Part shown: positions 11,538 to 27,911 of the stretch, piece after piece
Layout of the letters: each line of letters starts with the position of its first letter
Position numbering within the stretch: the first letter of the stretch is position 1
IMG/VR virus record: IMGVR_UViG_3300007276_000153
Span: 1-33,866 of that record
From: a virus
Direction: 5' to 3' (one strand)
DNA: 33,866 bases
Position numbers and translations under genes: made by a program
The notes under the pieces: model-generated
The model's database searches: none
What the model was told of the DNA's origin: nothing
Seen by the model: only the letters and a program-made list of their open reading frames with translations

Positions 11538-11554
11538 TTAGAAACTTCTAAAAA
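11531..11554 (+). terminator. AT-rich inverted repeat, possible weak terminator
   Basis: TTTTTAG (11531-11537, overlapping the helicase stop) pairs perfectly with CTAAAAA (11548-11554) around a 10-base loop. An A/T-rich stretch with a short T run follows. The stem is weak, so it may be a terminator or only AT-rich spacer. Confidence 0.35.
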
Positions 11555-11602
11555 CTCAATTTTTAATAACGGAAACATTTTACTAATTTTAATAATCTAG
11601 AT

Positions 11603-11884
11603 ATGGCATTAACAGAAGCAAAGTACCAGAGTAAAATTATTAAAGCCTTAGAGGCTAAAAATTGGTTTTGCATTAAATTAATCAGTACTAATAAGAATGG
11701 CATACCAGATATACTGGCTCTGAAGAGAGATAGGAAGCCACTCTTTATAGAGGTAAAAGGAGAGAAGGGTAGGATAGCTCCTCTGCAGGAGTATAGAGCT
11801 AAGGAGGTAGCTTCATTAGGATTCCTTCATCACTTTGCAGTCTCTGGAGATGACTTCATAGATATTATATCAGAGAGATACTAG
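11603..11884 (+). CDS. VRR-NUC domain nuclease (93 aa)
   Basis: A single-domain PD-(D/E)xK nuclease of the VRR-NUC family. The catalytic pattern is visible: GIPD with P35-D36, then FIEVK with E50 and K52, followed by GRIAPLQ with Q62. An N-terminal helix (TEAKYQSKIIKAL) carries the usual early Glu. The length is typical of phage stand-alone VRR-NUC proteins, which are thought to cut branched or flap DNA during replication and packaging. The gene follows the two helicases. The start lies in a TAGATATG context and gives MALTEAKYQ, the expected family N-terminus. Confidence 0.9.
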   Translation: MALTEAKYQSKIIKALEAKNWFCIKLISTNKNGIPDILALKRDRKPLFIEVKGEKGRIAPLQEYRAKEVASLGFLHHFAVSGDDFIDIISERY

Positions 11885-11890
11885 ACACTC

Positions 11891-11944
11891 TGTCACTGAC
11901 AAACTGCCAATTTGTCAATATAAAATAGTTTGGCATGATATTTG
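11891..11944 (+). promoter_or_regulatory. Operator-like inverted repeats and possible promoter
   Basis: TGTCAcTGACA (11891-11901) overlaps TGACAAA/TTTGTCA (11897-11903 and 11911-11917), a perfect 7-bp inverted repeat with a 7-base spacer. TTTG (11911-11914), 22 bases and GATATTTG (11937-11944) form an imperfect Bacteroidota promoter. The repeats overlap its upstream element, as expected for a repressor or activator site. The next gene starts at 11971. Confidence 0.45.
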
Positions 11945-11970
11945 TAATTAATTAATTTAAATATAGAAAG

Positions 11971-12132
11971 ATGAGTAAAGAAGCAGAGAAATACTTAAAG
12001 GAAAATCTTAATATTTGGACAATTAGAGAGATTGAAAAATATGCCCCAATATTGCAAGCCTATACAGATAAGGAAGTAAGGAAAGTATTAGATAATGTAG
12101 TATATCATAAACCATTAAACATAGAAAAATGA
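11971..12132 (+). CDS. Hypothetical small protein (53 aa)
   Basis: ATG at 11971, after an A-rich stretch (ATATAGAAAG), begins MSKEAEKYLKENLNIW. The stop at 12130-12132 overlaps the next ATG (ATGA). It is charged and helical. Its first residues resemble those of the downstream gene (both begin MSKE and carry KYLKE), suggesting a small duplication. It is the first gene after the operator-like repeats. Family unknown. Confidence 0.6.
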   Translation: MSKEAEKYLKENLNIWTIREIEKYAPILQAYTDKEVRKVLDNVVYHKPLNIEK

Positions 12133-12389
12133 GTAAAGAAGAAACATTTAACGAGAAGAGGCAGAAATACCTTAAGGAAAAGTTTAAAGAGGAGCGAATA
12201 GAAGAGGGCAGGAAGCTCTGGGAAGAGAGAAACCAACCAGATACCCACCTAAAGCATTATGCTCTCCAGAAGGAAGCCTTAAGAGGCTTAACAGACCCAC
12301 TCTCTCCAGAGAAGAGATTAGCTTTAATAGTTAAGCAGCTGGAAGAGAATAACAAAGTTTTAAAACGTATTTTAGACAGTATGGTATAG
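12129..12389 (+). CDS. Hypothetical coiled-coil protein (86 aa)
   Basis: Very charged Lys/Glu-rich helices (QKYLKEKFKEERIEEGRKLW, then a C-terminal LIVKQLEENNKVLKRIL with heptad spacing) point to a small coiled-coil protein. It overlaps the upstream gene by four bases. A reverse-strand frame here is treated as a shadow. No function can be assigned. Confidence 0.65.
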   Translation: MSKEETFNEKRQKYLKEKFKEERIEEGRKLWEERNQPDTHLKHYALQKEALRGLTDPLSPEKRLALIVKQLEENNKVLKRILDSMV

Positions 12390-12437
12390 ACCACCACCAC
12401 TAAAGGAGTCACATTTTTAACCTTTAATTTTTTAACA

Positions 12438-12644
12438 ATGAAAAAGTATTCAATTTTATTAGTATTATTAATGGTAGGCTTAGCCTCCTGTGAACCAGAC
12501 ACAGAAATTCTGGGAGAGCTTATGATAGTAGATAAGGCTATTAGTGGCACAGACTGTATAGAGAGAGCTTATGGCTATGACACTAACCAGAATGGAACCC
12601 TTAACTATAATGAAGTAGTAAGGAGAGAAACAATTTGTAATTAA
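12438..12644 (+). CDS. Small lipoprotein with EF-hand-like calcium loop (68 aa)
   Basis: The N-terminus is a lipoprotein signal: MKKY, a hydrophobic core, then lipobox LASC with Cys18. Mature residues include a 12-position loop DTNQNGTLNYNE (48-59) that matches the EF-hand spacing of D, N, N, G, hydrophobic and E, flanked by Cys40 and Cys67. Similar DxNxNGxLxxxE...C units occur in larger Bacteroidetes surface lipoproteins. Here there is a single copy. It would be anchored in the cell envelope during infection; superinfection exclusion is a guess. It ends in a TAATG overlap. Confidence 0.7.
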   Translation: MKKYSILLVLLMVGLASCEPDTEILGELMIVDKAISGTDCIERAYGYDTNQNGTLNYNEVVRRETICN

Positions 12645-12799
12645 TGGATGACTATAATAAGTTAGTAAAGTATCTGGACAGGTTCTGTAAGAAGACTGGC
12701 CTAAAGTATAGCCTAGACCTAGCTCAGGATACTGAGCAGGGAGAGGCTTCACTAGAAGAGATTAAAAAAGGATTAAGTAAACTAAATAAAAAGAAGTAA
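12644..12799 (+). CDS. Hypothetical small protein (51 aa)
   Basis: ATG at 12644 overlaps the lipoprotein stop by one base, and TAA at 12797-12799 is one base before the next ATG. The protein starts MDDYNKLVKYLDRF and ends in a Lys-rich helix (EEIKKGLSKLNKKK). It is basic and soluble. Tight packing supports it; function unknown. Confidence 0.6.
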   Translation: MDDYNKLVKYLDRFCKKTGLKYSLDLAQDTEQGEASLEEIKKGLSKLNKKK

Positions 12800-12800
12800 T

Positions 12801-12971
12801 ATGGATGAGTTTAAATTATTAGTATCAGCACTGGAGCAGGCACAAAAGGCAGGAGCCTTTAGCTTGCAGGAAGTAGCACAGATATTACCAGCTATAGCTA
12901 AGCTAGGAGATAAGCTTACAGCCTCTATGGAGGTAGTAACTACTCCAGAAGATGATAGCCCTAAGCAGTAA
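12801..12971 (+). CDS. Hypothetical small protein (56 aa)
   Basis: ATG at 12801 gives MDEFKLLVSALEQAQKAG, followed by a helix (LQEVAQILPAIAKLGDKL) and an acidic tail ending SPKQ. Amphipathic helices suggest a small helical-bundle protein. I preferred this + frame to the longer reverse-strand frame because it joins tightly to the upstream gene and matches the strand of every other gene. Confidence 0.6.
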   Translation: MDEFKLLVSALEQAQKAGAFSLQEVAQILPAIAKLGDKLTASMEVVTTPEDDSPKQ

Positions 12972-12979
12972 GAAGTAGC

Positions 12980-13024
12980 ATACCTCAGGCAGGTATCCTC
13001 CAAGAGGTGTAATTAACCCTGCCT
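12980..13024 (+). ncRNA. Intergenic RNA with interlocking stems (pseudoknot-like)
   Basis: ATACCTC (12980-12986) can pair with GAGGTGT (13004-13010). AGGCAGG (12987-12993) can pair with CCTGCCT (13018-13024). The two stems interlock as in an H-type pseudoknot, although no bases separate the two 5' arms. A local CCTC-CAA-GAGG hairpin (12997-13007) competes for the same arm. The element lies between stop 12971 and start 13040, before the genes leading to the sigma-like protein. The pairing is visible; a regulatory role is inferred. Confidence 0.4.
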
Positions 13025-13039
13025 TAATACATTAAAAAA

Positions 13040-13354
13040 ATGCAGAAACTACATAATATATTTTTTAAGAGCGACAGGACATATACTCAACTTCTGAGGA
13101 GTCCATACGCTGCAGCCTATGAGGTAACTTCTAATATCCATTCAGATAGATATTATGAAGTTTTTAAGATTAAAGTAGGCTTTAAATATGACTTTGAGAC
13201 TATGGAAAAAACCACAGACCCTTATGAGAAGTACCCTTCTAATGAGGACTTTGGAAAGTGGGCATGGTGTATCCAGAGAGCCAATAATGAAGCCAGCATA
13301 ATAGCAGCTATAGATAGATTCAATATAATTAACACCCCAGCAAATGAAAATTAA
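13040..13354 (+). CDS. Hypothetical protein (104 aa)
   Basis: A soluble protein with aromatic-rich strands (YYEVFKIKVGFKYDF) and a C-terminal segment KWAWCIQRANNEASIIAAIDRF that looks helical. It starts after an AAAAAA run and overlaps the sigma-like gene by 11 bases, so the two are likely co-translated. No family is recognised with confidence. Confidence 0.6.
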   Translation: MQKLHNIFFKSDRTYTQLLRSPYAAAYEVTSNIHSDRYYEVFKIKVGFKYDFETMEKTTDPYEKYPSNEDFGKWAWCIQRANNEASIIAAIDRFNIINTPANEN

Positions 13355-13916
13355 CCCAGAAGAGTATCCTACATATCAGGTTTTAATAGATACAATAGTA
13401 AAAAAGTTCCCTAAGCAGGAGAGAGATGACCTCTCCCAGAATGCGTGGGAGGTAATTCTTACTAGGTGTAATAATTTTGATGGAACTAATAAAGAAGATT
13501 TTATAAAATTTATATCATTAACAGTTAGAGCAGAGTCTCAGAAGTATATGGATAGAGTAGTAAATCCTAGAACAGACTCTGTGGAGGATTTAGAGCTAGA
13601 TAAGTATGGAGAGCCACGCCCTTCTAAATCATTTAGGAAGACTATGCTCCACTTAGATGATGAGGCTTATGTAGATGAGAATGGAGACTCAGTATCTTAT
13701 TCAGACCTTACTAATAATCCAGATAGTGAGGAGGATGCCCTAGATGCTAAGTTAACTCTGGACGTATTAAGGGCTAATATTTCAGATAAGGACTACACAG
13801 CACTGGAGCTGTACTACCTTTGCGGATATAACCCTAGAGAGATAGTGGAGAGTGGCCTAACTGAGTTTACCCACCCTAAGCAGATATACTACATAATAAA
13901 TAAATATAAAAAATGA
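13344..13916 (+). CDS. Sigma-70/ECF-like RNA polymerase sigma factor (190 aa)
   Basis: The architecture fits a two-domain sigma factor. Residues about 12-75 (FPKQERDDLSQNAWEVIL, then FIKFISLTVRAESQKYM) resemble region 2. An acidic linker (about 95-130) follows, and residues about 145-190 (ISDKDYTALELYYLCGYN, ending IYYIINKYKK) resemble region 4 with its helix-turn-helix. In phages such proteins redirect host RNA polymerase to late genes. The gene lies upstream of the structural operon. The match is by pattern and spacing; another helix-turn-helix regulator is possible. Confidence 0.6.
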   Translation: MKINPEEYPTYQVLIDTIVKKFPKQERDDLSQNAWEVILTRCNNFDGTNKEDFIKFISLTVRAESQKYMDRVVNPRTDSVEDLELDKYGEPRPSKSFRKTMLHLDDEAYVDENGDSVSYSDLTNNPDSEEDALDAKLTLDVLRANISDKDYTALELYYLCGYNPREIVESGLTEFTHPKQIYYIINKYKK

Positions 13917-14134
13917 CAATATATAAAGCCCTGAAGGATAACACGCTCCTCCTAGTTAAACTAAAGAGAGCAGGCATAATAACAGTGAACCCACTTTATA
14001 AATTAGCCTTATATGAGGACTACCTTAATGCAGATGGCACTAAGCTGGAGAAGTATGAAGCTGTAGCTAAGAAGCGGAATTTATCTACTAGGTATATATC
14101 ACTAATAATAAATAAATTATCTAAAAGCTTATGA
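13913..14134 (+). CDS. Small helix-turn-helix-like protein (73 aa)
   Basis: A basic protein that overlaps the sigma-like gene by four bases and the phosphoesterase gene by four. The C-terminal region (EAVAKKRNLSTRYISLIINKL) has the spacing of a recognition helix and ends like the sigma region-4 helix upstream (IYYIINKYKK). It could be a DNA-binding partner or anti-terminator. The function is inferred from shape only. Confidence 0.5.
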   Translation: MTIYKALKDNTLLLVKLKRAGIITVNPLYKLALYEDYLNADGTKLEKYEAVAKKRNLSTRYISLIINKLSKSL

Positions 14135-14922
14135 GTAAGAAAACAGAAGTAGTTAGACTGGAGCCAAAAGAGCTCAGTCTTATACAGGAGATTAGAGAAC
14201 TAAGTAAAGGCAGAACCATTAAGCCTAAGATTAAATATGATAGAAGGCCACTGCCTTTATTTTTTGATAAAGATAAGAGTAGGGTTCTGGTAATAGGAGA
14301 CCTCCATGCTCCTTTTGATTTAGACCAGTATCTTATACACTGCCAGAAGGTGTATAAAGATTTTAATTGTAATACTGTTATATTTATTGGAGATATAATA
14401 GATAATGCATTCAGCTCATTTCATGAGATAGACCCTGATGGCTATGGAGCTGGAGAGGAGCTAGAGAGAGCTATAGCTAGAGTGGCCAGATGGTATGAGG
14501 CATTCCCAGTAGCCACTGTTATTCTAGGGAACCATGATAGGTTAATAAGGAGGAAAGCATTTTCTGGAGGCATACCTAAAGACTGGATAAAGGAATATTC
14601 GACTGTTTTAAATACCCCTCACTGGACTTTCACAGACCATGTGGTAGTAGATGATGTAATGTACATACATGGAGAAGGAGGGACAGCTAGAATGCGTATT
14701 AAGTCTGAGCACCAGTCAATAGTACAGGGACATTTACATACTCAGGCCTATATAGATTGGATATTCAATGCTCAGCAGAGAATTTTCGGAATGCAGGTAG
14801 GGACAGGCATAGACTTCTCCAGCTACAGCTTTGCCTATGCCAAGAGAGGTAAGAAGCCAGCAGTCTCCTGTGGAGTAGTTATTAATGGGATACACCCTTT
14901 TTTATTACCTATGAACTTATGA
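14131..14922 (+). CDS. Calcineurin-like metallophosphoesterase (263 aa)
   Basis: All metal-binding motifs of the family are present in order: GDLH (56-59), GDIID (87-91), GNHD (133-136), HGEG (180-183) and GHLH (200-203). The N-terminal 45 residues are a charged extension. The fold hydrolyses phosphate mono- or diesters with two metal ions; the natural substrate in phages is not known. Candidates are nucleotide second messengers or nucleic acid ends. The gene overlaps its neighbours at both ends, within the block after the sigma-like gene. Confidence 0.9.
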   Translation: MSKKTEVVRLEPKELSLIQEIRELSKGRTIKPKIKYDRRPLPLFFDKDKSRVLVIGDLHAPFDLDQYLIHCQKVYKDFNCNTVIFIGDIIDNAFSSFHEIDPDGYGAGEELERAIARVARWYEAFPVATVILGNHDRLIRRKAFSGGIPKDWIKEYSTVLNTPHWTFTDHVVVDDVMYIHGEGGTARMRIKSEHQSIVQGHLHTQAYIDWIFNAQQRIFGMQVGTGIDFSSYSFAYAKRGKKPAVSCGVVINGIHPFLLPMNL

Positions 14923-15041
14923 GATATTTAAAAAGAGTACTTAGAGCTTTAGTAATTATTCCAATAGCTATTATATCTGTAGCTATTTTAACGATAGTAC
15001 AGCTAATTTTAGAATTAATACAGGCCAGAAATGATAGATAA
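14919..15041 (+). CDS. Small membrane protein (40 aa)
   Basis: ATG at 14919 overlaps the phosphoesterase stop (ATGA). The protein begins MRYLKRVLRA and has one long hydrophobic segment (LVIIPIAIISVAILTIVQLI), then ARNDR. Positive-inside charge suggests N-in orientation. It overlaps the next gene by 11 bases. Too few features for a function. Confidence 0.55.
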   Translation: MRYLKRVLRALVIIPIAIISVAILTIVQLILELIQARNDR

Positions 15042-15177
15042 ACTTAGAGATAGAAAGGATTACATAGAGCAGATTCTAGAAAACTTTGGAGCAGATTCCA
15101 CTGAGAGAGTGGAGGACTTAATAGAGGAGCTGGATGATATTAAAATAACAATTAAAACCTTAAAGAGATATGAATAG
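15031..15177 (+). CDS. Small coiled-coil protein (48 aa)
   Basis: ATG at 15031 lies inside the end of the membrane-protein gene and runs to TAG at 15175-15177. It is almost entirely charged helix (MIDKLRDRKDYIEQILENF, then VEDLIEELDDIKITIK). Coiled-coil pairing with a partner is plausible. Overlaps on both sides support it. Confidence 0.55.
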   Translation: MIDKLRDRKDYIEQILENFGADSTERVEDLIEELDDIKITIKTLKRYE

Positions 15178-15481
15178 ATTTTTCTTAGTGAGCGTATATT
15201 GTAAGACTGATTCAGATTCAGCTATAGTGCTAGTACCTTACAGAAGTGAGACTGGTAACTTTGTAAATGAGAAGTATATCTTATCAGTAGTATTTCAAGA
15301 TAAGGATATAACATTTGCTGCCATTTCTGGAGTTAATGAAATATCTGGAGATGACTATGAGGATTTTAGAGCAGATGAGATGGTAAAAAGAAGAGTAATC
15401 TGCCCAGTCTGTGGAGCAGAGGCAGATGCAGAGTATAAACCTTACTGCAGTATCCTCTGCCAAATAGATGATATTATTTAG
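15170..15481 (+). CDS. Small protein with C-terminal zinc knuckle (103 aa)
   Basis: An N-terminal beta-like domain (residues 1-75) is followed by a four-cysteine cluster CPVCGAEADAEYKPYCSILC (about 78-97), with CxxC and CxxxC spacing that should bind one zinc ion. Such knuckles are found in small regulators and RNA- or DNA-binding proteins. It is the last gene before a strong terminator that separates the early/middle genes from the head operon. The specific role is unknown. Confidence 0.6.
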   Translation: MNRFFLVSVYCKTDSDSAIVLVPYRSETGNFVNEKYILSVVFQDKDITFAAISGVNEISGDDYEDFRADEMVKRRVICPVCGAEADAEYKPYCSILCQIDDII

Positions 15482-15505
15482 TAGCTTCTGTGTTTTAGTT
15501 TTTAG

Positions 15506-15533
15506 AGCCCTTCCTTCTGGAGGGGCTTTTTTT
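15506..15533 (+). terminator. Rho-independent terminator before head operon
   Basis: AGCCC-TTCC pairs with GGA-GGGGCT across a short TTCT loop and is followed by seven T residues. It lies 24 bases after the zinc-knuckle gene. Confidence 0.9.
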
Positions 15534-15572
15534 ATCACATACTACAAGTGAGTAGTATTTCTAGTAAAAAAA

Positions 15573-15605
15573 TACCCTAACATGGATATATATTAATAGA
15601 GGGTA
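15573..15605 (+). promoter_or_regulatory. Inverted repeat upstream of the head operon, possible late control region
   Basis: TACCCT (15573-15578) and AGGGTA (15600-15605) form a 6-bp inverted repeat with a 21-base A/T-rich spacer (TGGATATATATT). The interval from terminator to protease gene must contain the late promoter, but no TAnnTTTG is seen. It may be read by the phage sigma-like factor. Confidence 0.35.
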
Positions 15606-15623
15606 ACTCTTAAAGGAAAAAAT

Positions 15624-16766
15624 ATGCTAGCTAAAATATATATAACTGGAGTGATAGGAGAGGATGTTTCATTACTAGACGTAATGAGACAGTATAAATC
15701 ATTTTCTAATCCTACCTCAGTGGAGGTAATAATAGACTCAGTAGGAGGCTCAGTAGATGTAGGCCAGAGTATATTCTCTTACTTAAGAAATTTACAAATA
15801 CCAGTTAAGACTTATGCCAAGAGAGCCTACTCCATAGCCTCAGTTATTTTTATGGCTGGAGATGAGAGAGAAGTAGAGCAAGGGCAGGAAAGATTAATGA
15901 TTCACTTTCCTTTTGTACAGAATGCCTCAGGAGGCTCTAAGGAGCTAGAGGATTTAACTAAGCAATTAAAAGCACTAGAGAGTGACTTCATAAAGTTCTA
16001 TGGAATTTACACTGGCATAGATGCTGACACTATAAAGACACTTTTAGAGAATGAGACTTTCCTATCTGGAGATGATGCATTCGATTTAGGATTTGCCACT
16101 ACAGTGAGTATTCCTCTAGCTGCAGTAGCTTATTATACACCAGAGGAGATTAATGATACAAAAACTAACAAAAATGTAATTATGAAGAACGCAGAAAAAT
16201 TAATTAAAGCTCTGCAGGTATTTGTCTCTCCTAAGGAGGTTCCTACTGAGATAGTAGCTTTAGTATTACAGGATGCTAATGGTATTGAGATTACCTTTCC
16301 AGCAGTAGCAGATGATGCTATGCCAGAGGTAGGAGATACAGCTACTGTAGATGGTGCCCCAGCAGAGGGAGAGTATGTAGCTCCAGATGGCTCTACATTC
16401 GTATTCTCTGGAGGAGAACTTACTGAAGTAAAACCAGCAGAAGAGCCAGCTCCTGAGACAGAAGAGGAAGCTGCAGCTAGAATAGCTAAAGAGGAAGAGG
16501 ATGCTAGATTAGCTTTAGAGAATGAGAACTCTGAAATTACTAAGCTATTAGAAACCCTTTTTAATAAGGCTACTTCTGAAGTAGAGGAGAAATTCAATAC
16601 AGCTCTTACTGCTTTGGCAGAAGAGAACAAAAAAGTAAACGATGAGCTTAAAGCTATGAGAGTCCTTTTAGGCTCTGCAGAAGTAAAAATAGAAGCTCAG
16701 GAAAAAGAGAATAGAGGAACAGCAGGAAGAAGTAAAGCTCTTGCAATTTTGAATAAACGTAAATAA
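15624..16766 (+). CDS. ClpP-like prohead protease fused to scaffold domain (380 aa)
   Basis: Residues 1-175 are an S14 (ClpP-type) serine protease: GGSVDVGQSI (41-50) for substrate binding, Ser70 in AYSIAS as nucleophile, His94 in LMIHFPF. The usual third acid maps to the ENETFLSG region, where a Glu stands in place of Asp, as often in phage homologues. From about 190 on the protein changes to an acidic, Glu/Ala-rich coiled-coil region (EEAAARIAKEEEDARLALEN) typical of a capsid scaffold. The fused enzyme probably organises the procapsid and then cuts the scaffold. The major capsid gene follows after 29 bases. Confidence 0.88.
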   Translation: MLAKIYITGVIGEDVSLLDVMRQYKSFSNPTSVEVIIDSVGGSVDVGQSIFSYLRNLQIPVKTYAKRAYSIASVIFMAGDEREVEQGQERLMIHFPFVQNASGGSKELEDLTKQLKALESDFIKFYGIYTGIDADTIKTLLENETFLSGDDAFDLGFATTVSIPLAAVAYYTPEEINDTKTNKNVIMKNAEKLIKALQVFVSPKEVPTEIVALVLQDANGIEITFPAVADDAMPEVGDTATVDGAPAEGEYVAPDGSTFVFSGGELTEVKPAEEPAPETEEEAAARIAKEEEDARLALENENSEITKLLETLFNKATSEVEEKFNTALTALAEENKKVNDELKAMRVLLGSAEVKIEAQEKENRGTAGRSKALAILNKRK

Positions 16767-16795
16767 TTAAAAACTAAAATTAAAACTAAAAAATT

Positions 16796-17764
16796 ATGGC
16801 ATCACCGAATTTCACATTAACTGGATTAACTGGTTATGTTGACCAAAACAGAGAAGAGCTTTTATCTGCTGCTATTGCAGGAGCAAAGTCTAGCCAAGTG
16901 CTAGCAATGCAAACAGGTATTAAGGGCTCAGCAAATATCAATTTATTGGATACTGATTTAGTTTTCCAAGTTGATAATGTAGCAGGAAGAACTCCTGCAG
17001 GAGTAACTACTATCAGTAAAAGGACTATCACAGTGGCTCCTATTAAAGTAGAAGAGGATATTAATGTAAAGGGCTTAAATGACACTTATATCCAGCACCA
17101 ATTAAAAGCAGGTTCAGCAGACGATGCTATTCCTTTTGAGCAAGCATGGAGCGAACTTAAAGCTGCTAAAATTGCAGCACAACTTGAGACAGCTATCTGG
17201 CAGTCTGAGGTAGGTGGAGCTGGTGGTGCCAATATGGTACACTTTGATGGCTTCCTAGAAATTATCAAGGATGAGACTGCTAACGTAATTCACTCTAATG
17301 GCACTTCTGGAGGTATCCTTACAGCCACAGGTATTACTTCAGCTAATATTGAGGCTATTGTAGATGGTGTTTACACTTCTATTCCACTTGAATTATTGGA
17401 TAAGGATGATGTAGTTATCTTTATGGGACATGATAGGTTTAGACTATACACTCAAGCTTTGAAGGATTCTAACTTATTCCACTATGATGCCAAAGGCTCT
17501 AATTTCGAGATAATGGTACCTGCCACAAATGTTAAGGTAATGGCCTTGCATGGCTTGAATGGAGTAGCAGTAGATGGCAGCCCTATAGTAGCAGCTAGAA
17601 CTTCTAATATGATTATAGGAGTAGATTTAGAGCACGATGAGGATGTATTTGAAGTATGGTATTCTAAGGATGACAAAGTAGTTAAATTTGATGCAGGCTT
17701 CAAATATGGAGTACAGATTGCCTTCCCAGCAGAGGTAGTAGAATTTTCTACAAACGCAGTATAA
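16796..17764 (+). CDS. Major capsid protein (322 aa)
   Basis: The start MASPNFTLTGLTGYVDQNRE, followed by GAKSSQVLAMQTGIKG and LLDTDLVFQV, is a pattern I associate with the HK97-fold capsid proteins of Bacteroidetes phages. Length (about 320) and position behind the protease-scaffold agree. The upstream sequence is a long A-rich tract without Shine-Dalgarno, a strong Bacteroidota-type ribosome site. Codon use is richer in TTC, ATC and CAA than in the neighbours, consistent with high expression. A terminator follows. Confidence 0.9.
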   Translation: MASPNFTLTGLTGYVDQNREELLSAAIAGAKSSQVLAMQTGIKGSANINLLDTDLVFQVDNVAGRTPAGVTTISKRTITVAPIKVEEDINVKGLNDTYIQHQLKAGSADDAIPFEQAWSELKAAKIAAQLETAIWQSEVGGAGGANMVHFDGFLEIIKDETANVIHSNGTSGGILTATGITSANIEAIVDGVYTSIPLELLDKDDVVIFMGHDRFRLYTQALKDSNLFHYDAKGSNFEIMVPATNVKVMALHGLNGVAVDGSPIVAARTSNMIIGVDLEHDEDVFEVWYSKDDKVVKFDAGFKYGVQIAFPAEVVEFSTNAV

Positions 17765-17774
17765 TTAAATGATT

Positions 17775-17798
17775 AAGCCCTCTCTAGGGAGGGCTTTT
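17775..17798 (+). terminator. Rho-independent terminator after capsid gene
   Basis: AAGCCCTC pairs with GAGGGCTT around a six-base loop and ends in TTTT. It may partly stop transcripts so that capsid mRNA exceeds that of the genes after it. Confidence 0.88.
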
Positions 17799-17822
17799 AA
17801 CTAAAAACAAAAAGATAAAACA

Positions 17823-18419
17823 ATGGCATACGATGATAAAATCAGTGCTACTATAGCCTTCGACTATCAGGACAGACCCCTCAAGGGACTGGATGGTGGT
17901 AGAGCTATCTTAGTTAACTATGATGAAATTGATTTCGCCTCTACACCAAGAACAGCCTTAGCTCAGTTAGTAGCTTTTACATTAAAGGCTGGTGGTTCTG
18001 CAGGTTTTGAAATTCAATGGTATAAAGAACTGGCCAGTACTTCCAGTGCTTATGCTCCTAATGCTGAGGCAGTAGATGGATTTTCCCACAGCTTCTTAGG
18101 CAGAATGAGTAATGCTTCTGCAGCTAATGCAGAGATAGCTAAGGAATTAAAAGATGGTAGATTCCTAGTAATAGTAGAGACCAAGTATAAGGGAGCAGAT
18201 GGAGATGACTCTAAGGAAGCTTATAAAGTTTATGGATTTGATTCTGGACTTAAGCTAAGTGAGATGACTTATGCGTCTCAAGAGAATGAAGGTGGTATCT
18301 TATTTACACTAGCTACTCCTGAGGGAATGAGTGAGAGATTTCCTTACCAGACTCTATACGCTGTATCTAAGACTGCTACAGATGTATTAGTAACTGGACT
18401 ACTTACTCCTACCATTTAG
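17823..18419 (+). CDS. Structural protein, possible tail tube or head decoration (198 aa)
   Basis: A beta-rich protein with the segment KVYGFDSGLKLSEMTYASQE followed by GGILFTLATPEG. I recognise this style from structural genes next to the capsid gene in Bacteroidetes phages, but cannot place it firmly. The A-rich start (AAAGATAAAACA before ATG) implies strong translation. Possible roles are major tail protein or capsid decoration. It lies between a terminator and a hairpin, so its own transcript level may be tuned. Confidence 0.6.
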   Translation: MAYDDKISATIAFDYQDRPLKGLDGGRAILVNYDEIDFASTPRTALAQLVAFTLKAGGSAGFEIQWYKELASTSSAYAPNAEAVDGFSHSFLGRMSNASAANAEIAKELKDGRFLVIVETKYKGADGDDSKEAYKVYGFDSGLKLSEMTYASQENEGGILFTLATPEGMSERFPYQTLYAVSKTATDVLVTGLLTPTI

Positions 18420-18444
18420 GATTAAAGATTAAGGTTAAGATGTA

Positions 18445-18471
18445 AGGGAGCCTCAGTAACATGAGCTCCCT
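18445..18471 (+). terminator. Hairpin between structural genes, terminator-like without T tract
   Basis: AGGGAG (18445-18450) pairs with CTCCCT (18466-18471); inner CTCA/TGAG adds pairs around a bulge. No run of T follows (TATCTTATC), so it may be a partial terminator or an RNA processing or stability element. Confidence 0.5.
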
Positions 18472-18504
18472 ATCTTATCATCAAATAATTAAAGAAAAAA
18501 TATT

Positions 18505-18885
18505 ATGGCAAACTATAAGTTTAGATACCCTACAGCTCTTTACAAAACTGATGAAGGCTCTTACATTTCGCAGAAGACCCTCACAGATGAGATAGCTGAG
18601 AAATTCCTAGCAGAAGACCCTGAGAGAATAGCTCTATTCTCCTCCTATCCAGACTCGGTAGCTCCTCAGAGCGACGATATAGACACAGAGGTAATAGAAG
18701 ACACTGAGCCAGAGAACAGCGAAAATAAGCCACCCTGTACTCCATGTAAGAAAAAGAAAGAATTAATGGCAATTAACATGAATGAGCTCAGGGTTATGTA
18801 TCCTGACTTATCCACTCCAGTAGGAACTACTAAAGTGGACTTCGTTAATATGATAGTTAAATCAATTTTTAACACAGAAGACTAA
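18505..18885 (+). CDS. Head-associated protein with CxxC and SAP-like C-terminus (126 aa)
   Basis: Residues 1-50 form a small domain (FRYPTALYKTDEGSYISQKT). An acidic linker (SDDIDTEVIEDTEPENSE) and a PPCTPCKKKKEL motif follow. The C-terminal 35 residues (MNELRVMYPDLSTP, then TKVDFVNMIVKS) resemble small helix-extended-loop-helix or SAP domains that bind DNA. The protein may link capsid or portal to DNA. It overlaps the portal start in TAATG. The role is inferred. Confidence 0.55.
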   Translation: MANYKFRYPTALYKTDEGSYISQKTLTDEIAEKFLAEDPERIALFSSYPDSVAPQSDDIDTEVIEDTEPENSENKPPCTPCKKKKELMAINMNELRVMYPDLSTPVGTTKVDFVNMIVKSIFNTED

Positions 18886-19514
18886 TGAAATTAACTTATA
18901 ACCCTCATACAGACAGCCCTCTGGATATAAAGCCAGACAGGAGAACAGAGGTATTTAACTTTGGAGCAGATAATGCTTATCCTACCCTAGTAGAGACCCT
19001 TATTCAGGGCTCAGTCACAGCCAAAAACTGTGTAGGTAAGGTAGCAAAATCTATATACGGTAAAGGATTTGGAGAAGCTGGTAAGGTTAAAGTTAATAAA
19101 AGAGGCCAGAGCTTAAATGACTTTTTAAGAGTGGCAGGTAAAGAGCTAGCTACTCATAATAATCTATTTATCCATATAGGATATAATGGAGACCTCCAGA
19201 TAAACAGCCTAACTGTGATACCCACTACCTCCTGTAGAGTAGGTAAGGCAGATGACAAAGGCTACTCTGGTAAGATAGTAATTTATGATAACTGGGCTAA
19301 GGATGTTCAGCAGAGAGTACAGCCTGCTAAATTTGAGAGAGTAGATGTATATAACCCTAATAAGACTGTAATCCTTTCCCAGATAGAGAAGGCAGGAAGC
19401 CTTAAGCAGTATAAAGGGCAGATGCTCCATATTCAGGAGGCCACCAATGCTGTGTACAGCCTTAGTGACTTACACCCAGTACTAGAGGATGCTCTCCTAG
19501 AGAGTAGGGCTTAG
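18885..19514 (+). CDS. Portal protein, N-terminal part, ending at an in-frame TAG
   Basis: Residues 1-209 match the N-terminal half of a Bacteroidetes phage portal: FNFGADNAYPTLVETLI near the start and KNCVGKVAKSIYGKG after it. At codon 210 a TAG interrupts the frame within LLESRA-stop-SFRRRGADKG, and the same frame then continues uninterrupted to 20033. The full reading would be 382 residues, a normal portal size. As it stands the product would lack the C-terminal clip/wing and crown parts and would not be expected to work alone. Readthrough, a mutation in this genome, or a sequencing error are the options. Confidence 0.8.
   Translation: MKLTYNPHTDSPLDIKPDRRTEVFNFGADNAYPTLVETLIQGSVTAKNCVGKVAKSIYGKGFGEAGKVKVNKRGQSLNDFLRVAGKELATHNNLFIHIGYNGDLQINSLTVIPTTSCRVGKADDKGYSGKIVIYDNWAKDVQQRVQPAKFERVDVYNPNKTVILSQIEKAGSLKQYKGQMLHIQEATNAVYSLSDLHPVLEDALLESRA
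19512..19514 (+). other. In-frame TAG inside portal gene
   Basis: This single amber codon lies in otherwise continuous portal sequence. Downstream codons SFRRRGADKGFLNTK are conserved-looking and precede any possible restart, so they would be lost without readthrough. TAG is one base change from CAG, AAG, GAG, TTG or TGG. Confidence 0.85.
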
Positions 19515-19562
19515 AGCTTCAGACGTAGAGGAGCGGATAAGGGCTTCTTAAATACTAAGCTA

Positions 19563-20033
19563 ATGGTAGTAGCTCCTTTTGCCTCAGAAGAAGAGGAGGA
19601 TGACTTTAATGATGCTTTAAAGAGCCTACAGGGAGCAGAGAACTCAGGAGGAGTATTACTTCTGGAGGCTAGTAGCTTAGATGGAGATGTAAATACAGCA
19701 GTAAAGCTGGAGGACTTATCCTCAGCTTATAATGATACTATGTTCCAGTACTCAGAGGAACAGGCTAGGAAGAATATTTGTATAGCTTTTGAGGTGCCAC
19801 TTAATTTAGTGGATGCCACTGATTCTGGATTATTTGGAAACTCAGGAGAGCTCCTTACTTCCATGAAGCAAATACTCTGGGAGTCTCAGGAAGAGGTAAG
19901 AGATAGGCTAACAGAGACACTATCAGCTCTATTAAGTGACTCTTCAATAGTAGTAGAGGGAGAGCTAGAGATTATAGAGCCTTTTAAATTAGTAGAACCA
20001 GAACAAAAAATCCAGACAAATGAGCCTAGTTAG
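19563..20033 (+). CDS. Portal protein, C-terminal part (156 aa from internal ATG)
   Basis: This frame is the continuation of the portal gene; 19515-19562 also reads as portal sequence. The ATG at 19563 (MVVAPFASEEEEDD) is the only nearby start and has a poor context (AATACTAAGCTA upstream). Typical portal motifs are seen: SGGVLLLEASSL, ARKNICIAFEVPLNLV and GLFGNSGELLTSMKQILW. It overlaps the connector gene by 14 bases. A two-chain portal is theoretically possible but not known; I see this as the second half of one gene. Confidence 0.7.
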   Translation: MVVAPFASEEEEDDFNDALKSLQGAENSGGVLLLEASSLDGDVNTAVKLEDLSSAYNDTMFQYSEEQARKNICIAFEVPLNLVDATDSGLFGNSGELLTSMKQILWESQEEVRDRLTETLSALLSDSSIVVEGELEIIEPFKLVEPEQKIQTNEPS

Positions 20034-20532
20034 TAATGTAGAATTTAAAGCAGCCAGAGATATTGGTAATAAAGTAGATGAGTCTAAACTGACAGAGGCT
20101 ATAATACTTACAGAGAAAACAGAGCTCTATGACTTACTAGGGGAGTTCTTATTTGACTGTATCACTAATAAAGATTCAGTAGCAGCTCTCTGGGTAGATT
20201 TATTTGCAGGTAGCACATTTACAGTAAATGGAGAGACCTTTATCCATGATGGCCTGAAGGCAGTGGTAATAGATTTAGCATACAGCAGGTATCTTAGTGT
20301 ACTTAATCCAGTCTTCACTCCTTTTGGGATAGCCTTCAAGGATTCGGATGACCTAGAGAGAGTAGATAAGGAGACACTTAACAGATTAGTGACCAATGCT
20401 AAGAAGGATGCAGATGCTAAAATGAGAGTAGTTAAGAAGTACCTTGAGGAAAATTCGTCTAGCTTCCTTAGGTATAATAAAAAAGATACGCCTGATTTTG
20501 GGCTTAACCAAAGACGCTGGAGAACATTATAA
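20020..20532 (+). CDS. Head-tail connector-like protein (170 aa)
   Basis: A helical protein starting inside the portal's end. The pattern SNVEFKAARDIGNKVDESKL followed by ELYDLLGEFLFDCITN resembles small connector proteins found directly after portals in Bacteroidetes phages (DUF6712-like, from memory). It ends LNQRRWRTL. It probably docks under the portal and joins head to tail. The family assignment is moderate; the position is strong support. Confidence 0.65.
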   Translation: MSLVSNVEFKAARDIGNKVDESKLTEAIILTEKTELYDLLGEFLFDCITNKDSVAALWVDLFAGSTFTVNGETFIHDGLKAVVIDLAYSRYLSVLNPVFTPFGIAFKDSDDLERVDKETLNRLVTNAKKDADAKMRVVKKYLEENSSSFLRYNKKDTPDFGLNQRRWRTL

Positions 20533-20534
20533 TT

Positions 20535-20651
20535 ATGGGAACATTTGTATTAGGAGTAGTATTAGGAATGGTTTTAAATAATAATAGAAAGGCTGTTCTG
20601 GAATTAATTAAAGTAGGATATAATAAAGTTAAAAACACATTTAAGAAATGA
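20535..20651 (+). CDS. Small membrane protein (38 aa)
   Basis: ATG at 20535 follows AATT two bases after the connector stop. The protein has an N-terminal hydrophobic span (GTFVLGVVLGMVLNN) and a basic tail (VGYNKVKNTFKK). It overlaps the next gene by four bases. It begins the lysis/membrane cluster and could be a holin component; too short to tell. Confidence 0.55.
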   Translation: MGTFVLGVVLGMVLNNNRKAVLELIKVGYNKVKNTFKK

Positions 20652-20794
20652 GCACATTCACAATAGTAATTCTAGTAGTAGGTATTTTTGCAGTAGCAAG
20701 AGTAGCTCTCAGGAAACAGGATAGAGAACCTAATGATGAGAAATTAGGAGAGGGAGGAAACTCTGGAACAGATGTAAAAGGTAATCAAAAATGA
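20648..20794 (+). CDS. Small membrane protein (48 aa)
   Basis: ATG at 20648 lies in an ATGA overlap and the stop at 20792-20794 overlaps the next ATG. One N-terminal span (STFTIVILVVGIFAVARVAL) is followed by a polar, charged C-terminal tail (KQDREPNDEKLGEGG). The type I-like topology and setting suggest a lysis accessory such as a holin or antiholin. Confidence 0.55.
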   Translation: MSTFTIVILVVGIFAVARVALRKQDREPNDEKLGEGGNSGTDVKGNQK

Positions 20795-21390
20795 AGCAGC
20801 GACCTTACATTATTTTCTGGGTTCTAAGTATGGCTCTAGTAATATTTTTTACTAGAAGCTGTGGCTCGGATTTAGTGACTGATGTAATTACAATTCCTGC
20901 AAGGGAGAACACAAAAATAATAACAGCACCTCTCCCAGTGGTAAAAAAAGATACCTTCTTTTTAGAAACTGGAGAGATAAAAATAGTCACTGTTCCTAAT
21001 CCAATTAATCAGGAAATGATGACCAAATATTACCAAACTAAGGACACTCTAGAGAGACTAAAATTATATCAAAATGCTATCGAAATTCGGGAGTATGTAG
21101 AAACCCTAAAAGACAGCACTCAAATTATCACAGTCCTCAGTTCGGTCTCAGGAGAGCTCAGAGAGCAGATAATTTCTTACAGAACACTCCCTATGGAATT
21201 TCCGAGAACACGCAATACGAGCAAAAACGCCCTGTTTATAGGGCTTTCAGGAGGTCTGCCTTTAGACCCTAATTTTAACACTTTTACGGCTGGAATTAAG
21301 GCAGATGTAGTGACAAAAAATAAGATTTACAGCTTAGGCTATGATAGCCAAAAAAGGATAAATATAGGCTTATCAATTAAATTATTTTAA
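20791..21390 (+). CDS. Membrane-anchored protein with beta-rich C-terminus, spanin candidate (199 aa)
   Basis: An N-terminal anchor (MKQRPYIIFWVLSMALVIFF) is followed by a Cys24 in TRSCGSD, which is a poor lipobox. A helical stretch (60-130) follows, then an outer-membrane-like tail (KNALFIGLSGGL..., ending INIGLSIKLF with terminal Phe). This layout could bridge the inner and outer membranes, as spanins do. It sits among small membrane genes before the fibre and lysozyme genes. It has about ten CpG dinucleotides in 600 bases, far more than most of the window, so it may be a recent acquisition. Function inferred. Confidence 0.5.
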   Translation: MKQRPYIIFWVLSMALVIFFTRSCGSDLVTDVITIPARENTKIITAPLPVVKKDTFFLETGEIKIVTVPNPINQEMMTKYYQTKDTLERLKLYQNAIEIREYVETLKDSTQIITVLSSVSGELREQIISYRTLPMEFPRTRNTSKNALFIGLSGGLPLDPNFNTFTAGIKADVVTKNKIYSLGYDSQKRINIGLSIKLF

Positions 21391-21391
21391 G

Positions 21392-21754
21392 ATGGAAATA
21401 GACCCAAGCAATGTAAAAGATTTCATTCCATATCTAATAGGATTAGCCACTACTTTGCTAGCTCTTAAGAAGGACTGGATAGGCTCTAAATTAGGAGTTA
21501 AAAATTCTCAGGAGGATTTAGAGACTAAATCTTTAGGGAATATTCATAAAGAAATGAGCATATATAAGGAGCTCCTAGATGATATTAGGATTAGACATTC
21601 TGAAGTAGTAGATGATATGAGAGCAGAGATAAAAACACTTCAGCAGGAGATAATTGAGCTTAGAGCTTTTAATAAAGAGCAGAAGGATTTTATAGCTAAG
21701 CAGAGTAAGAGCTTAGCATATTACACTCAGAAATTTGGTAAGATAATAGAGTAA
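21392..21754 (+). CDS. Holin-like or coiled-coil membrane protein (120 aa)
   Basis: Residues 10-26 (DFIPYLIGLATTLLALKK) form one weak hydrophobic span. The rest, from about 40 to 110, is a strong coiled coil (KEMSIYKELLDDIRIRHSE, then EIKTLQQEIIEL). This resembles small phage proteins encoded beside lysis genes, either holins or Rz-like coiled-coil subunits. It starts one base after the preceding stop. I cannot separate the two options. Confidence 0.5.
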   Translation: MEIDPSNVKDFIPYLIGLATTLLALKKDWIGSKLGVKNSQEDLETKSLGNIHKEMSIYKELLDDIRIRHSEVVDDMRAEIKTLQQEIIELRAFNKEQKDFIAKQSKSLAYYTQKFGKIIE

Positions 21755-21767
21755 ACTAACAACCCTT

Positions 21768-24700
21768 ATGGTAATAATTAACACTATAGATGCTAATACC
21801 TTCTCCATTGATGGAGAGGTATTCCCTACTATATACCAGCCCCTAACCAGTGATACTGATTCTGTGGCCATTTATAACGTATATGATACCAAGCTCCAGA
21901 TATTACCCTCCACTTTATACTCACAGATAACACTAGACTCAGTGGTATATGGAACAAAGGCTCTTTTAATAGCAGCTCTTATTCCAGTAATATATAAGCC
22001 AGCTTCTGGAGGAGGAGGGACTATAGCGTGGGGAGATATTACCTCTGGGCTAATTACTTCCCAGACTGACCTACAGGCAGAGCTAGATGCAAAGGCAGAT
22101 ACAGTACATACTCATACCACAGCTCAGATAACTAACCTAAGTGCCTACACTGGCCTAGATTCCAGATACTATACTAAGTCACTAGGAGACCTGAGATATG
22201 CTCCTATAGTCCATACCCACCCCTACACAGATGTAGTAGGCTTTACTGACTATATCTATGATGCTAATAGTATCCAGAGAGAAATACTATCCACAGGTAT
22301 TAGTGATGGTGGTGCCCTGACTATTAATGTAGATACTACAAAATTCGATATAGCTGCAGGTGTAGGGTTTATAGTTGACCATACAGTACACCCTTCTGTA
22401 GTGACTAAAGTAGAGTGGAGTGCATTCACAGCACAGACTGTGACCAATTTGGCTACCTCATTTGCTACTGATATTGCTATTAACGCTGCAGGAGCTATAG
22501 TACAGCAAGACAGTTATACAACTGAGGAGTTAAGGAGTCTAATCTTCTTAGGAGGTCTTAGTCACTTAAATCAGACTAATATAGATAGAACCTTCTCTAT
22601 AAATATAATGAGTGACGGAATAGGCTCTAATGTTTATGAGTTAACGAAGGCAATAGGGGATATTAACACCAGCGGAAATGTATTTTTCCCTAATGCTACA
22701 GGGAACCTGACCATAAATAAGACCTCAGGCACTACCTTCTCTTATGGTAGGAATAATGCAGTAGATAAACTTAACCCTAACTTAGCTACACAGGCTACCC
22801 AGACTATATGCCCTCTTCTATTAGTATATGGAGATGGCTCTGGCAATGGTGTATTCTCAGCCCTTACTAATGATATTGACCCTACCCAGTATGATAATGG
22901 CTCAGGAACACTACAGGCTGTCTCTGGTGCTAAATGGACTATCCAGAGGATACTAATGTTCTCTAATAGTGGACAGGTAGCTGTACAGTACGGCTCTGCA
23001 GAGTACACAAATAAGTCAGATGCCATTACCAATGCAGCTCTAGCTGGCTTTGACTCCTTAACTGGTATTAAAACAGCAATAGTTAGAGGCTACATAATAG
23101 TAAAGAACACAGCTACAGATTTAACCAGTAGTGATGCAGAGTTCGTGACTGCTGACAGATTCGGTGGTGTATCCTCCAGAGATGCAGGAGCTACAGGGAC
23201 TACAGCTTGGGGCAGTATTACAGGCACCCTATCCTCACAGACAGACTTACAGTCTGCATTAGATGCTAAGGTAAACCTAGCAGGAGACTCTATGACAGGT
23301 ATCCTTAATGTAGCTGCAAATGTAAACGCTGATAATGGCTTTATTACGTCAAAAGCTACAGCACATACCCACAGAACTATACTAGGCAATTCTGCTACTG
23401 TTAGGAACTATCTAGTAGGAGGTAGCTCTACAGCTTCTACCAGTGTATTAGATACTTATCTTAGAATTAGGTCTATAGCAGATGGAGATTTAACATTCCA
23501 AGAGAATGGGCTAGCACATAAGATATGGCATGAGGGTAACTTAACTCCTGCAGATTATGTATTGAAAGCAGGAGATGTGATGACAGGAGATTTAACTGTT
23601 AATGCTCAATTACTTATACCTAATGCTACAGTTAATAACTGGGCATTTAGAGCAGATACAAATGATGTGAACTACTCTGGCTTATGGTTTACAGCTGCAG
23701 GAGATGGTATGCTTATATTAAGAGACTCTTTAGGTGCTAATACCCAATTAACATACAATGCTACTATTAATGGCTTGAATGCAACTGGTAATATTAACTC
23801 AGAAGGGAGCTACTACTATGGAGACAGTAAGGCTATAGTACAATTCTCAGATGTATGGTTAAGATTAAACCCTTCAGGTAGTTTTACTAATGGTATCTAC
23901 TGTGGTAGTAGTATTGTTCGTACAGATGGCAGCCTACAGGTAGGAGCCAGTGGGAGTATGTTCCATGCGACTACTGCAGGAGTAGTGAGCAGTGCCATCA
24001 GTATGACCTCAGTGGATGTGATAGGTACTACCTCTCTGACTGCAGGGAATAGTGGTGTTCAAAATGGTACTATCACGCTAGCTAAAAATGACACAGGAGG
24101 AGTGGCTCTAGCTTATGAGGATGACTATTATAGATGGAGAAGAGGTGGAGGTGGCTCAATAGCAGGTTTTAGGTGGGATAACTTTGACTCTCAGGTTATG
24201 AGATTAGCGTCTAGTGGCTCAGTCTTAACTTTAGGCACAGATGTAGCCACTACAGGAGCTGTACACGCAGGCGATTTCATAGCAGGTAATCAAATACTTA
24301 ACTATGGTGTCAGCAGATGGAGTGTATCTGAGGCAGACACAGCACACCAGAGATGTGATGCTAGAGACGATGCTACCACACAGTCTAGACTCCATTGGTA
24401 TGGAGTAGATTCACTAGGAGCAGTTAAAAACATTAGGGAGGCATGGTATGATGGAAATAACTACTTATATCTTGATTATGAAAATGATGAATTATTATTC
24501 TCTACCTCAGTGTCAGCCAGTACCTCTCCTTTAACATTTAAGATACAGAGTAAAGTAGATGCTAATTTTATTGTAGAGGCAGACTCAGATAACTCAACCG
24601 AGACAGATAACCCTACTATACAAATGTGGCAGGATGGTGCAGCAGTTAAAGCCATCTGGGGGATAGAGAGTTCAGCAAGCACAGCTTTTACTGGAACAGC

Positions 24701-25634
24701 AGATAATTCTCCATATTTCAATACTTTAGCAGGTACTCAATGGGTATTCGGCACAGCAGGTACTAAGAAATTTGCCATAGAACCCAATGGAGTGACCTCA
24801 GCAGGGTATGTAGCAGGAACTAGAATAGTAGCAGGGTATGACTCAGCAGTAGCTGGTTCTGTTAATGCCTCTGGCTGGTTTAGGAGTACAGGTTCTACTG
24901 GATGGTTTAACGCTACTTATGGTGGTGGTATTTATATGACTGAAAGCACCACTGTGAGAGTGTATGCAACTAAGAAGTTTCAGGTAGATAATGATATTTA
25001 TATAGCAGGAGCAAACGCAGGTATAACCAGAGGAGGTAGTACAGCTAGAGGATACTTAATAGGTTCTTACAATGCAGACGGAAATATAGCAACAGCTACA
25101 GGGTGTATTTACACTATGGGGACTAGCTTTAAGCCTGCAGCTACTACTCTAGGTAATATGTATGGAGTGGGTTATTCTTATGGGTCTGCATCATTCCTTA
25201 ACTCTACTGATTTAGGTACTACTCCTAGTAATGAGTGGGGATTCTATGTGGCAGCAGATGGTAATGCTAGATTTTTCGTATCTGGAACTTCTGGGAAGAG
25301 CTGGCAGAAGAGTGTATCTTATGCTTCTAACTTCCAATTAAACTCAGATAGGAGACTTAAGACAAAAATAAAGGACTATAAGCCTACTGGATTAGGTGTA
25401 AAATGGAAGACATTTGAGCTTAAGAACGAAGCTGGAATATATAGGGTAGGAGTGATAGCTCAGGACTTACTTAAGATAGCTCCTCAATTTGTTGACCAGA
25501 GTGACCCAAAATCACTGACAGTAAAAAGTATAGATTTAGCTAATGCCTGTATAGCAGAACTTACACAGGAAAATAAAGAGCTCAGGCACCGTATGGATAG
25601 ACTTGAGAAAATGTTTAAAATAAGTAAAAATTAG
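21768..25634 (+). CDS. Tail fibre with C-terminal S74 chaperone domain (1288 aa)
   Basis: Residues 1-80 share a domain with the start of the protein at 26460 (IYQPLT, Y-DT, YGT-AL-IAAL-P), probably the tail attachment site. Fibre repeats follow: AWGDIT...SQTDLQAELDAK and AWGSITGTLSSQTDLQ, HTHTT, and MTG-L-V repeats (MTGILNV, MTGDLTV). From about 1190 the S74 intramolecular chaperone begins: Ser1193 and Lys1198 in SDRRLK form the Ser-Lys dyad for self-cleavage, then YRVGVIAQDL and a terminal coiled coil (NKELRHRMDRLEKM). It should trimerise, release the chaperone and bind the host surface. Confidence 0.93.
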   Translation: MVIINTIDANTFSIDGEVFPTIYQPLTSDTDSVAIYNVYDTKLQILPSTLYSQITLDSVVYGTKALLIAALIPVIYKPASGGGGTIAWGDITSGLITSQTDLQAELDAKADTVHTHTTAQITNLSAYTGLDSRYYTKSLGDLRYAPIVHTHPYTDVVGFTDYIYDANSIQREILSTGISDGGALTINVDTTKFDIAAGVGFIVDHTVHPSVVTKVEWSAFTAQTVTNLATSFATDIAINAAGAIVQQDSYTTEELRSLIFLGGLSHLNQTNIDRTFSINIMSDGIGSNVYELTKAIGDINTSGNVFFPNATGNLTINKTSGTTFSYGRNNAVDKLNPNLATQATQTICPLLLVYGDGSGNGVFSALTNDIDPTQYDNGSGTLQAVSGAKWTIQRILMFSNSGQVAVQYGSAEYTNKSDAITNAALAGFDSLTGIKTAIVRGYIIVKNTATDLTSSDAEFVTADRFGGVSSRDAGATGTTAWGSITGTLSSQTDLQSALDAKVNLAGDSMTGILNVAANVNADNGFITSKATAHTHRTILGNSATVRNYLVGGSSTASTSVLDTYLRIRSIADGDLTFQENGLAHKIWHEGNLTPADYVLKAGDVMTGDLTVNAQLLIPNATVNNWAFRADTNDVNYSGLWFTAAGDGMLILRDSLGANTQLTYNATINGLNATGNINSEGSYYYGDSKAIVQFSDVWLRLNPSGSFTNGIYCGSSIVRTDGSLQVGASGSMFHATTAGVVSSAISMTSVDVIGTTSLTAGNSGVQNGTITLAKNDTGGVALAYEDDYYRWRRGGGGSIAGFRWDNFDSQVMRLASSGSVLTLGTDVATTGAVHAGDFIAGNQILNYGVSRWSVSEADTAHQRCDARDDATTQSRLHWYGVDSLGAVKNIREAWYDGNNYLYLDYENDELLFSTSVSASTSPLTFKIQSKVDANFIVEADSDNSTETDNPTIQMWQDGAAVKAIWGIESSASTAFTGTADNSPYFNTLAGTQWVFGTAGTKKFAIEPNGVTSAGYVAGTRIVAGYDSAVAGSVNASGWFRSTGSTGWFNATYGGGIYMTESTTVRVYATKKFQVDNDIYIAGANAGITRGGSTARGYLIGSYNADGNIATATGCIYTMGTSFKPAATTLGNMYGVGYSYGSASFLNSTDLGTTPSNEWGFYVAADGNARFFVSGTSGKSWQKSVSYASNFQLNSDRRLKTKIKDYKPTGLGVKWKTFELKNEAGIYRVGVIAQDLLKIAPQFVDQSDPKSLTVKSIDLANACIAELTQENKELRHRMDRLEKMFKISKN

Positions 25635-25639
25635 AAAAT

Positions 25640-26038
25640 ATGGCATTAACGATTAAGCAGCAGATAGAACTAAGGAATGATGGATTACCCTCTATGTATT
25701 ATACTATAGATTTATTCTCTTACCAGACAGCTCTAGCAGTGGCTATAGACTATCAGAAGAATGAGAAGGTAGTACCTATGGAAAATGCAGAGGCCTATAG
25801 CTATGCTAATAAAGTCTCTGGAGTAATAGGAAGACTATATAATGACAGAGAGAAGATGATGGATATTCTATCCAATATGATGACAGCTACTCTAGGTAAT
25901 AGTACCTACACTGCTGCCCAGATTAATGGAGCTACCTCTGCACAGATAGAAGGATTCTTCTCTGGAGAGATGATGACAATAATAGAGAACTTAGCTCTAG
26001 TGACTCCTAGTGAGAGAGCTGAATATATAGCCCTGTAA
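25640..26038 (+). CDS. Hypothetical protein of the tail fibre cluster (132 aa)
   Basis: A helical protein (MALTIKQQIELRNDGLPSMYY, then a long middle helix around REKMMDILSNMM). It sits between two fibre genes, six bases after the large fibre and in a TAATG overlap with the next. It may be a fibre-assembly helper or linker protein. No family motif is recognised. Confidence 0.6.
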   Translation: MALTIKQQIELRNDGLPSMYYTIDLFSYQTALAVAIDYQKNEKVVPMENAEAYSYANKVSGVIGRLYNDREKMMDILSNMMTATLGNSTYTAAQINGATSAQIEGFFSGEMMTIIENLALVTPSERAEYIAL

Positions 26039-26442
26039 TGAGTGTACCAAATACCACAAATTTCAGCCTTCAGGATGTAGTTAATGAGATAGGCTCAGGG
26101 AGCAGTTTAATTAACTGCTTTGCTAATGCAGTGGCTGCTGGCTTTGACCCTTTATATGGGAGTATTAGCAGCACTCAGCTATACGCATTCAGGAACTATA
26201 ACCATGCTGCCATTACTGTTGACCCAGTATCACTAGGCTATAGTGCTATTAGTTCTGTGAATGCCTGTGGAGCAGGGCTTACCACTTACTATATAGATGA
26301 TGGCCTTACATGGCTTACCAGTACTTACCTCTGGGATGACAATATAGGCACAGTACCTTCTGCTTCAGGGTTCTACTCAGATGGCACATGGTACAGAGAA
26401 TGGAATGGAAGCGTATTTTTAACCTTTAAATTAGCCTGCTAG
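26038..26442 (+). CDS. Small tail fibre/adhesin-like protein (134 aa)
   Basis: The N-terminus begins MSVPNTTNFSLQDVVNEIG. This opening, followed by a FRNY segment, is common in small phage tail proteins. The C-terminal module (GFYSDGTWYREWNGSVF) is shared with the protein at 27235 (GYYSDGSSFRYWNGSSW). Two Cys residues flank this module. It is probably an exposed receptor-binding or decoration protein. It ends TAG, 17 bases before the next fibre gene. Confidence 0.6.
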   Translation: MSVPNTTNFSLQDVVNEIGSGSSLINCFANAVAAGFDPLYGSISSTQLYAFRNYNHAAITVDPVSLGYSAISSVNACGAGLTTYYIDDGLTWLTSTYLWDDNIGTVPSASGFYSDGTWYREWNGSVFLTFKLAC

Positions 26443-26459
26443 GCATAAAATAAATAGAC

Positions 26460-27233
26460 ATGAGTGTAATAATAAGTACAGCAGGTGCTCCTGCAGGAAC
26501 CTTTACAGTAGATGGAATATTATATAACAAAATTTACCAGCCATTAACTGGAGGAGGGGACTATATATCACTGATAAATAGTTATGACACTAGACAGGTT
26601 TTAGTTCCTAATACCATATACAGTGGCTATACCATTAATGGAGTAGGATATGGTACAGCAGCTCTGACTATAGCAGCTCTGGTACCTATAGTATATGAGA
26701 GCTATCAGGGAGGTACTATTACCTCAGTATTTGGGAGGACAGGAGTAGTAGTAGCAGATACTGCTGACTACAGCTCATTCTATATATCTAAGACTGGAGG
26801 CACTATGACAGGAGCTCTGACAGTACCAGCTGACCCTTATGCTATTGGCTGGAATGGGAATAATACAGTACCTACTAAGAATGATGTATATGATAAGATA
26901 GAGGCTCTGGTATTAGGAGGAGCCATTACTTCTGTATTTGGTAGGACTGGAGTAGTGACTGCATTAAGTACAGACTACTCAGCATTCTACTTAGGTATAT
27001 CTGCCACAGCAGCTAATAGCACTCTATTTAATGGATTAGCTACTACAGCCTTCCTTAGTGCTACAGCTAATGACAGCACCTCAGGGAGCTTAACAGCAGC
27101 CTCATTTATTACAGGAGCATGGACTATAGATAGCTCAGGGACTGATTTAGTTTTTAAATACTCTGGAATAACTAAGTTTACCATTACCTCAGCAGGAGCA
27201 GTAACTATAGCAGGGAATTTAACAGCAGGATAA
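26460..27233 (+). CDS. Short tail fibre protein (257 aa)
   Basis: The first 80 residues resemble those of the large fibre (IYQPLTGGGDYISLINSYDT, YGTAALTIAALVPIVYES). Two copies of the fibre motif SVFGRTGVV (about 91-99 and 161-169) follow, with a TGGTMTGALTV segment between them. It lacks the S74 domain. It probably attaches to the same place as the large fibre and serves as a partner or alternative, receptor-binding domain aside. It ends TAA, one base before the next ATG. Confidence 0.75.
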   Translation: MSVIISTAGAPAGTFTVDGILYNKIYQPLTGGGDYISLINSYDTRQVLVPNTIYSGYTINGVGYGTAALTIAALVPIVYESYQGGTITSVFGRTGVVVADTADYSSFYISKTGGTMTGALTVPADPYAIGWNGNNTVPTKNDVYDKIEALVLGGAITSVFGRTGVVTALSTDYSAFYLGISATAANSTLFNGLATTAFLSATANDSTSGSLTAASFITGAWTIDSSGTDLVFKYSGITKFTITSAGAVTIAGNLTAG

Positions 27234-27234
27234 A

Positions 27235-27906: not shown

Positions 27907-27911
27907 TAGAT

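Follow-up and report, generated by a model that had tools for sequence, protein, structure and literature searches.

Portal gene and its in-frame stop codon

Why should the portal protein gene of a tailed phage be interrupted by a single stop codon in an otherwise open frame? The window considered here, meaning the whole 33,866-base stretch of IMG/VR record IMGVR_UViG_3300007276_000153, is an assembled phage genome of this kind, probably with a host among marine Flavobacteriia. A sequence-only reading described a portal frame at 18885-20033 with one TAG at codon 210 and conserved-looking sequence on either side, and listed host amber suppression, programmed readthrough, a defective genome and a base-calling error as options. 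On the evidence reviewed below, the lineage very probably has a normal portal gene, and the interruption reflects either a single genome that is defective or in the minority, or a single local error of consensus or assembly.

Both the frame and its translation bear out the description of the gene: it runs from an ATG at 18885 to a TAG at 20031-20033 and contains exactly one internal stop, the TAG at codon 210 (Table 1). Residues 1-209 match positions 7-214 of the portal profile PHROG 11226 (E 1.2e-48) and the piece 3' of the TAG matches positions 220-384 (E 6.4e-19), confirming that conserved sequence flanks the stop. Since the two pieces fall, in order, on consecutive parts of one profile, they represent one gene rather than chance neighbours. 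The read-through protein matches positions 7-384 of 388 (E 5.3e-74) and qualifies as a full-length family member, though the single uninterrupted open frame of PHROG 11226 portals, found in 15 of 15 relatives, is absent from the window. The Pfam Phage_portal score is 29.1 bits, under the curated cut-off of 39.1, and the structure model is too poor for placing residue 210 (mean pLDDT 44.5). The record contains one portal copy; a second was sought in it and not found.

Table 1. Features of the interrupted portal locus, in window coordinates
Feature	Position	Strand	Basis
Portal protein gene frame with one interruption	18885..20033	+	PHROG 11226 on both pieces and on the read-through protein; intact homologues in relatives
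In-frame TAG at codon 210, where the near-identical contig has CAG	19512..19514	+	Frame and contig comparison
Three-difference patch relative to the near-identical contig (19508 and 19511 synonymous, 19512 nonsense)	19508..19512	+	
First in-frame ATG past the TAG; Met in just one of six other aligned relatives	19563..19565	+	

Codon 210 in related phages

The IMG/VR protein scan, which may omit records closely resembling that of the window, yielded one near-identical contig, IMGVR_UViG_3300022178_004340. It is colinear with 15585-31608 of the window, gap-free and 99.8% identical (31 differences in 16,024 bases). Its codon 210 is CAG, its portal frame is open (382 amino acids) and all 19 genes compared are open. 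No further copies of the site were found with a DNA pattern spanning the TAG. The sequence-only reading had proposed searching close relatives and had stated that a sense codon at 19512 would make the TAG an error or a private mutation; CAG in this contig is such a codon, and it favours the defective-genome and error options.

More distant portals were drawn from IMG/VR, the genome of Mariniflexile gromovii, 299 genomes of its family (six of which match, M. gromovii itself included) and annotated phages (three taken of 144 matching records). With each record counted once, and with L004 excluded because it does not cover codon 210, there are 15 relatives; for L025-L027, residues rather than codons were used at this position. 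A stop at codon 210 or in the matched frame occurs in none of the 15 distinct relatives covering the codon. The residue there is Gln in five, Gly in five, Ser in three, Lys in one and Met in one, with the distant alignments being loose. The Gln-bearing five are the closest relatives, namely the near-identical copy and four portals at 52-55% identity. Gln in these five, together with no stop in any of the 15, indicates that the close lineage has Gln at this position and that, on this comparison, the TAG is private to this assembly. No DNA-level relative was found in the phage collection.

The portal of Cellulophaga phage phi46:1 (gp07; KC821611), a virion component by MS/MS according to its record, belongs to PHROG 11226 and matches the window protein over the full length of the family at 37% identity. 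Both genomes have a Clp-protease-like gene upstream of the portal and the large terminase downstream. However, phi46:1 and every other relative examined have an uninterrupted portal frame, unlike the window.

No sense-strand gene besides the portal is interrupted where relatives' ORFs match the window (902-1237 and 15,624-33,683; genes at about 1,240-15,620 had no relative match). Stops occur in five of the 77 matches to these ORFs, four of them at the portal and one in an antisense match. With the portal alone interrupted, that region shows no sign of wider gene decay or recoding. In the same comparison, two window genes, 21768-25634 (at 21765-22001) and 26460-27233 (at 26460-26699), were both matched by the N-termini of the same relatives' proteins, so that a tail-type N-terminal module seems to be duplicated.

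Decoding of the TAG

Among 45 genes selected from the listed ORFs, stop usage (21 TAA, 18 TAG and 6 TGA) rules out whole-genome reassignment of TAG. The estimate in the sequence-only reading that TAG is the normal stop of about 16 other genes agrees with this count, in which the portal end is one of the 18 and all nine of its example positions are included. Its dismissal of whole-genome recoding likewise holds, with one internal TAG set against 18 terminal ones. The portal is the sole gene with an internal stop among the 45, a check that is weak alone, as the other frames had been chosen as open ORFs. Phages using translation table 15 (TAG read as Gln), such as crAss-like phages, resemble the window in having an in-frame TAG where relatives carry Gln. 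A genome of that group would, however, be expected to contain many in-frame TAGs and no TAG stops, unlike the window, and to encode a suppressor tRNA, whereas no tRNA was found in the 33,866 bases of this record, which is not closed. When read with the standard code, table 15 phages have a low coding density genome-wide (PMC11210395).

Alternatively, the TAG could be real and partly decoded by an amber suppressor tRNA of the host or of a missing part of the phage, such that full-length portal is made. In favour of this, the frame has no other interruption, and the sequence on either side of the TAG is conserved. The window also starts and ends inside genes, so part of the genome may be missing, and this gap and the host leave room for a suppressor tRNA. 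A search for one in the rest of the genome, as had been suggested, found no tRNA in the window; none was found in the three relative loci scanned (L009-L011), and no Rfam family reached its gathering score in the window. For some of the 18 TAG-ended genes, 84 or 129 codons follow without another in-frame stop; strong suppression would be a burden there, which speaks against it. Given in addition that the near-identical phage carries a sense codon, suppression of this kind is improbable. At 3307-3918, two ORFs succeed each other in one frame, a TAG being followed by an ATG (3541-3546) with no further stop for 129 codons; this pair, which no relative spanned, may be ordinary gene adjacency.

Programmed readthrough, which would set portal level or yield two portal forms, is very unlikely. 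The TAG does sit inside a single open frame, but a conserved stop at the site, as expected of such readthrough, is found in 0 of 15 relatives, and the near-identical gene, which is uninterrupted, has exactly the same bases 3' of this codon. Nor does the RNA from the TAG onward show a stimulatory structure: the 109 bases folded no better than shuffled sequences (z -0.59; 48 of 200 shuffles as good). In the literature on readthrough or suppression with portal, PMC3091744 treats tail frameshifting.

Production of the portal as two chains, through restart at the ATG at 19563, is equally hard to credit. This codon (codon 227) does lie in frame 16 codons past the TAG; it is the first in-frame ATG past the TAG but not, as had been claimed, the only one, with 19740 and 19863 also in frame. 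However, the match of the post-TAG piece to the portal profile begins at residue 2 of that piece, so restart would lose conserved sequence. Met at 19563 is present in the uninterrupted near-identical gene as well, and therefore did not arise for restart; elsewhere in alignment A3 only L019, one of the six other relatives, has it.

Of the options originally listed, a defective genome and an error thus gain support from the CAG in the near-identical contig, while suppression and programmed readthrough lack a supporting feature. The idea of an unexpected, regulated site is accordingly not upheld, as no positive feature points to programming or suppression.

Origin of the three-base patch

The preferred explanation is that the lineage carries an ordinary uninterrupted portal gene, with Gln at codon 210 in close relatives, and that in this one assembly the codon reads TAG as part of a three-base patch at 19508-19512. 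The patch would be either a real nonsense allele, from a genome that is defective or in the minority, or an error of local consensus or assembly. With normal decoding, the predicted product ends at residue 209, is short of 172 residues at its C terminus and would almost surely provide no working portal; the TAG allele would be expected to carry no function.

The nonsense change at 19512 comes with two synonymous changes (19508 and 19511), all within 5 bp. Such a triple arose in 100 of 200,000 trials when the 31 differences were placed uniformly, and at a frequency of 5e-5 when only the 11 differences before 30087 were placed. This suggests a single local event, which would be a short patch of variant sequence or an error in the consensus. 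Further clusters distinguish the two contigs (28243-28245, 31382-31383 and eight silent changes in 31441-31482), indicating that clustering is a general trait of this sequence pair; it may be what recombining strains or mixed-strain assembly would produce. Twenty of the 31 differences sit at or beyond 30087, near the end of IMGVR_UViG_3300022178_004340. The differences at 28243-28245 are three adjacent bases in a lysozyme-like gene. The gene at 30087 has a listed start of GTG in the window and ATG in the near-identical contig, and relatives align only from about 30099, leaving its true start uncertain.

A local template switch was also considered as a source of the patch. The new sequence recurs as a 7-base copy about 33 bp downstream, which is no better than chance: 8.3% of 5,000 random places hold an equally long match within 50 bp.

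Simple random sequencing error would not readily give three linked changes so close together. As two of them are silent, a strain-derived patch appears to fit somewhat better than random read errors, and a real allele is for this reason somewhat likelier than an artefact. If the allele is real, its presence in an assembled genome points to some abundance, which counts against the preferred explanation, as does the reliance on a single near-identical relative. It could instead be a replicating strain variant, acquired as a short patch along with the two silent changes, in a host that reads amber well enough to make portal, though there is little probability of this.

Implications

Classical amber mutants of phages carry a single change of the CAG-to-TAG type in an essential structural gene. 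The window differs from these in that it is an environmental assembly, that two silent changes neighbour the TAG and that no suppressing host is known. Where an essential gene of an assembled virus genome has a single in-frame stop, it should be compared with near-identical contigs before any inference of readthrough. Should the allele nevertheless be real and suppressed, the phage would depend conditionally on a host strain with amber suppression, and the allele would be a sign of such suppression occurring naturally in what is probably a flavobacterial host.
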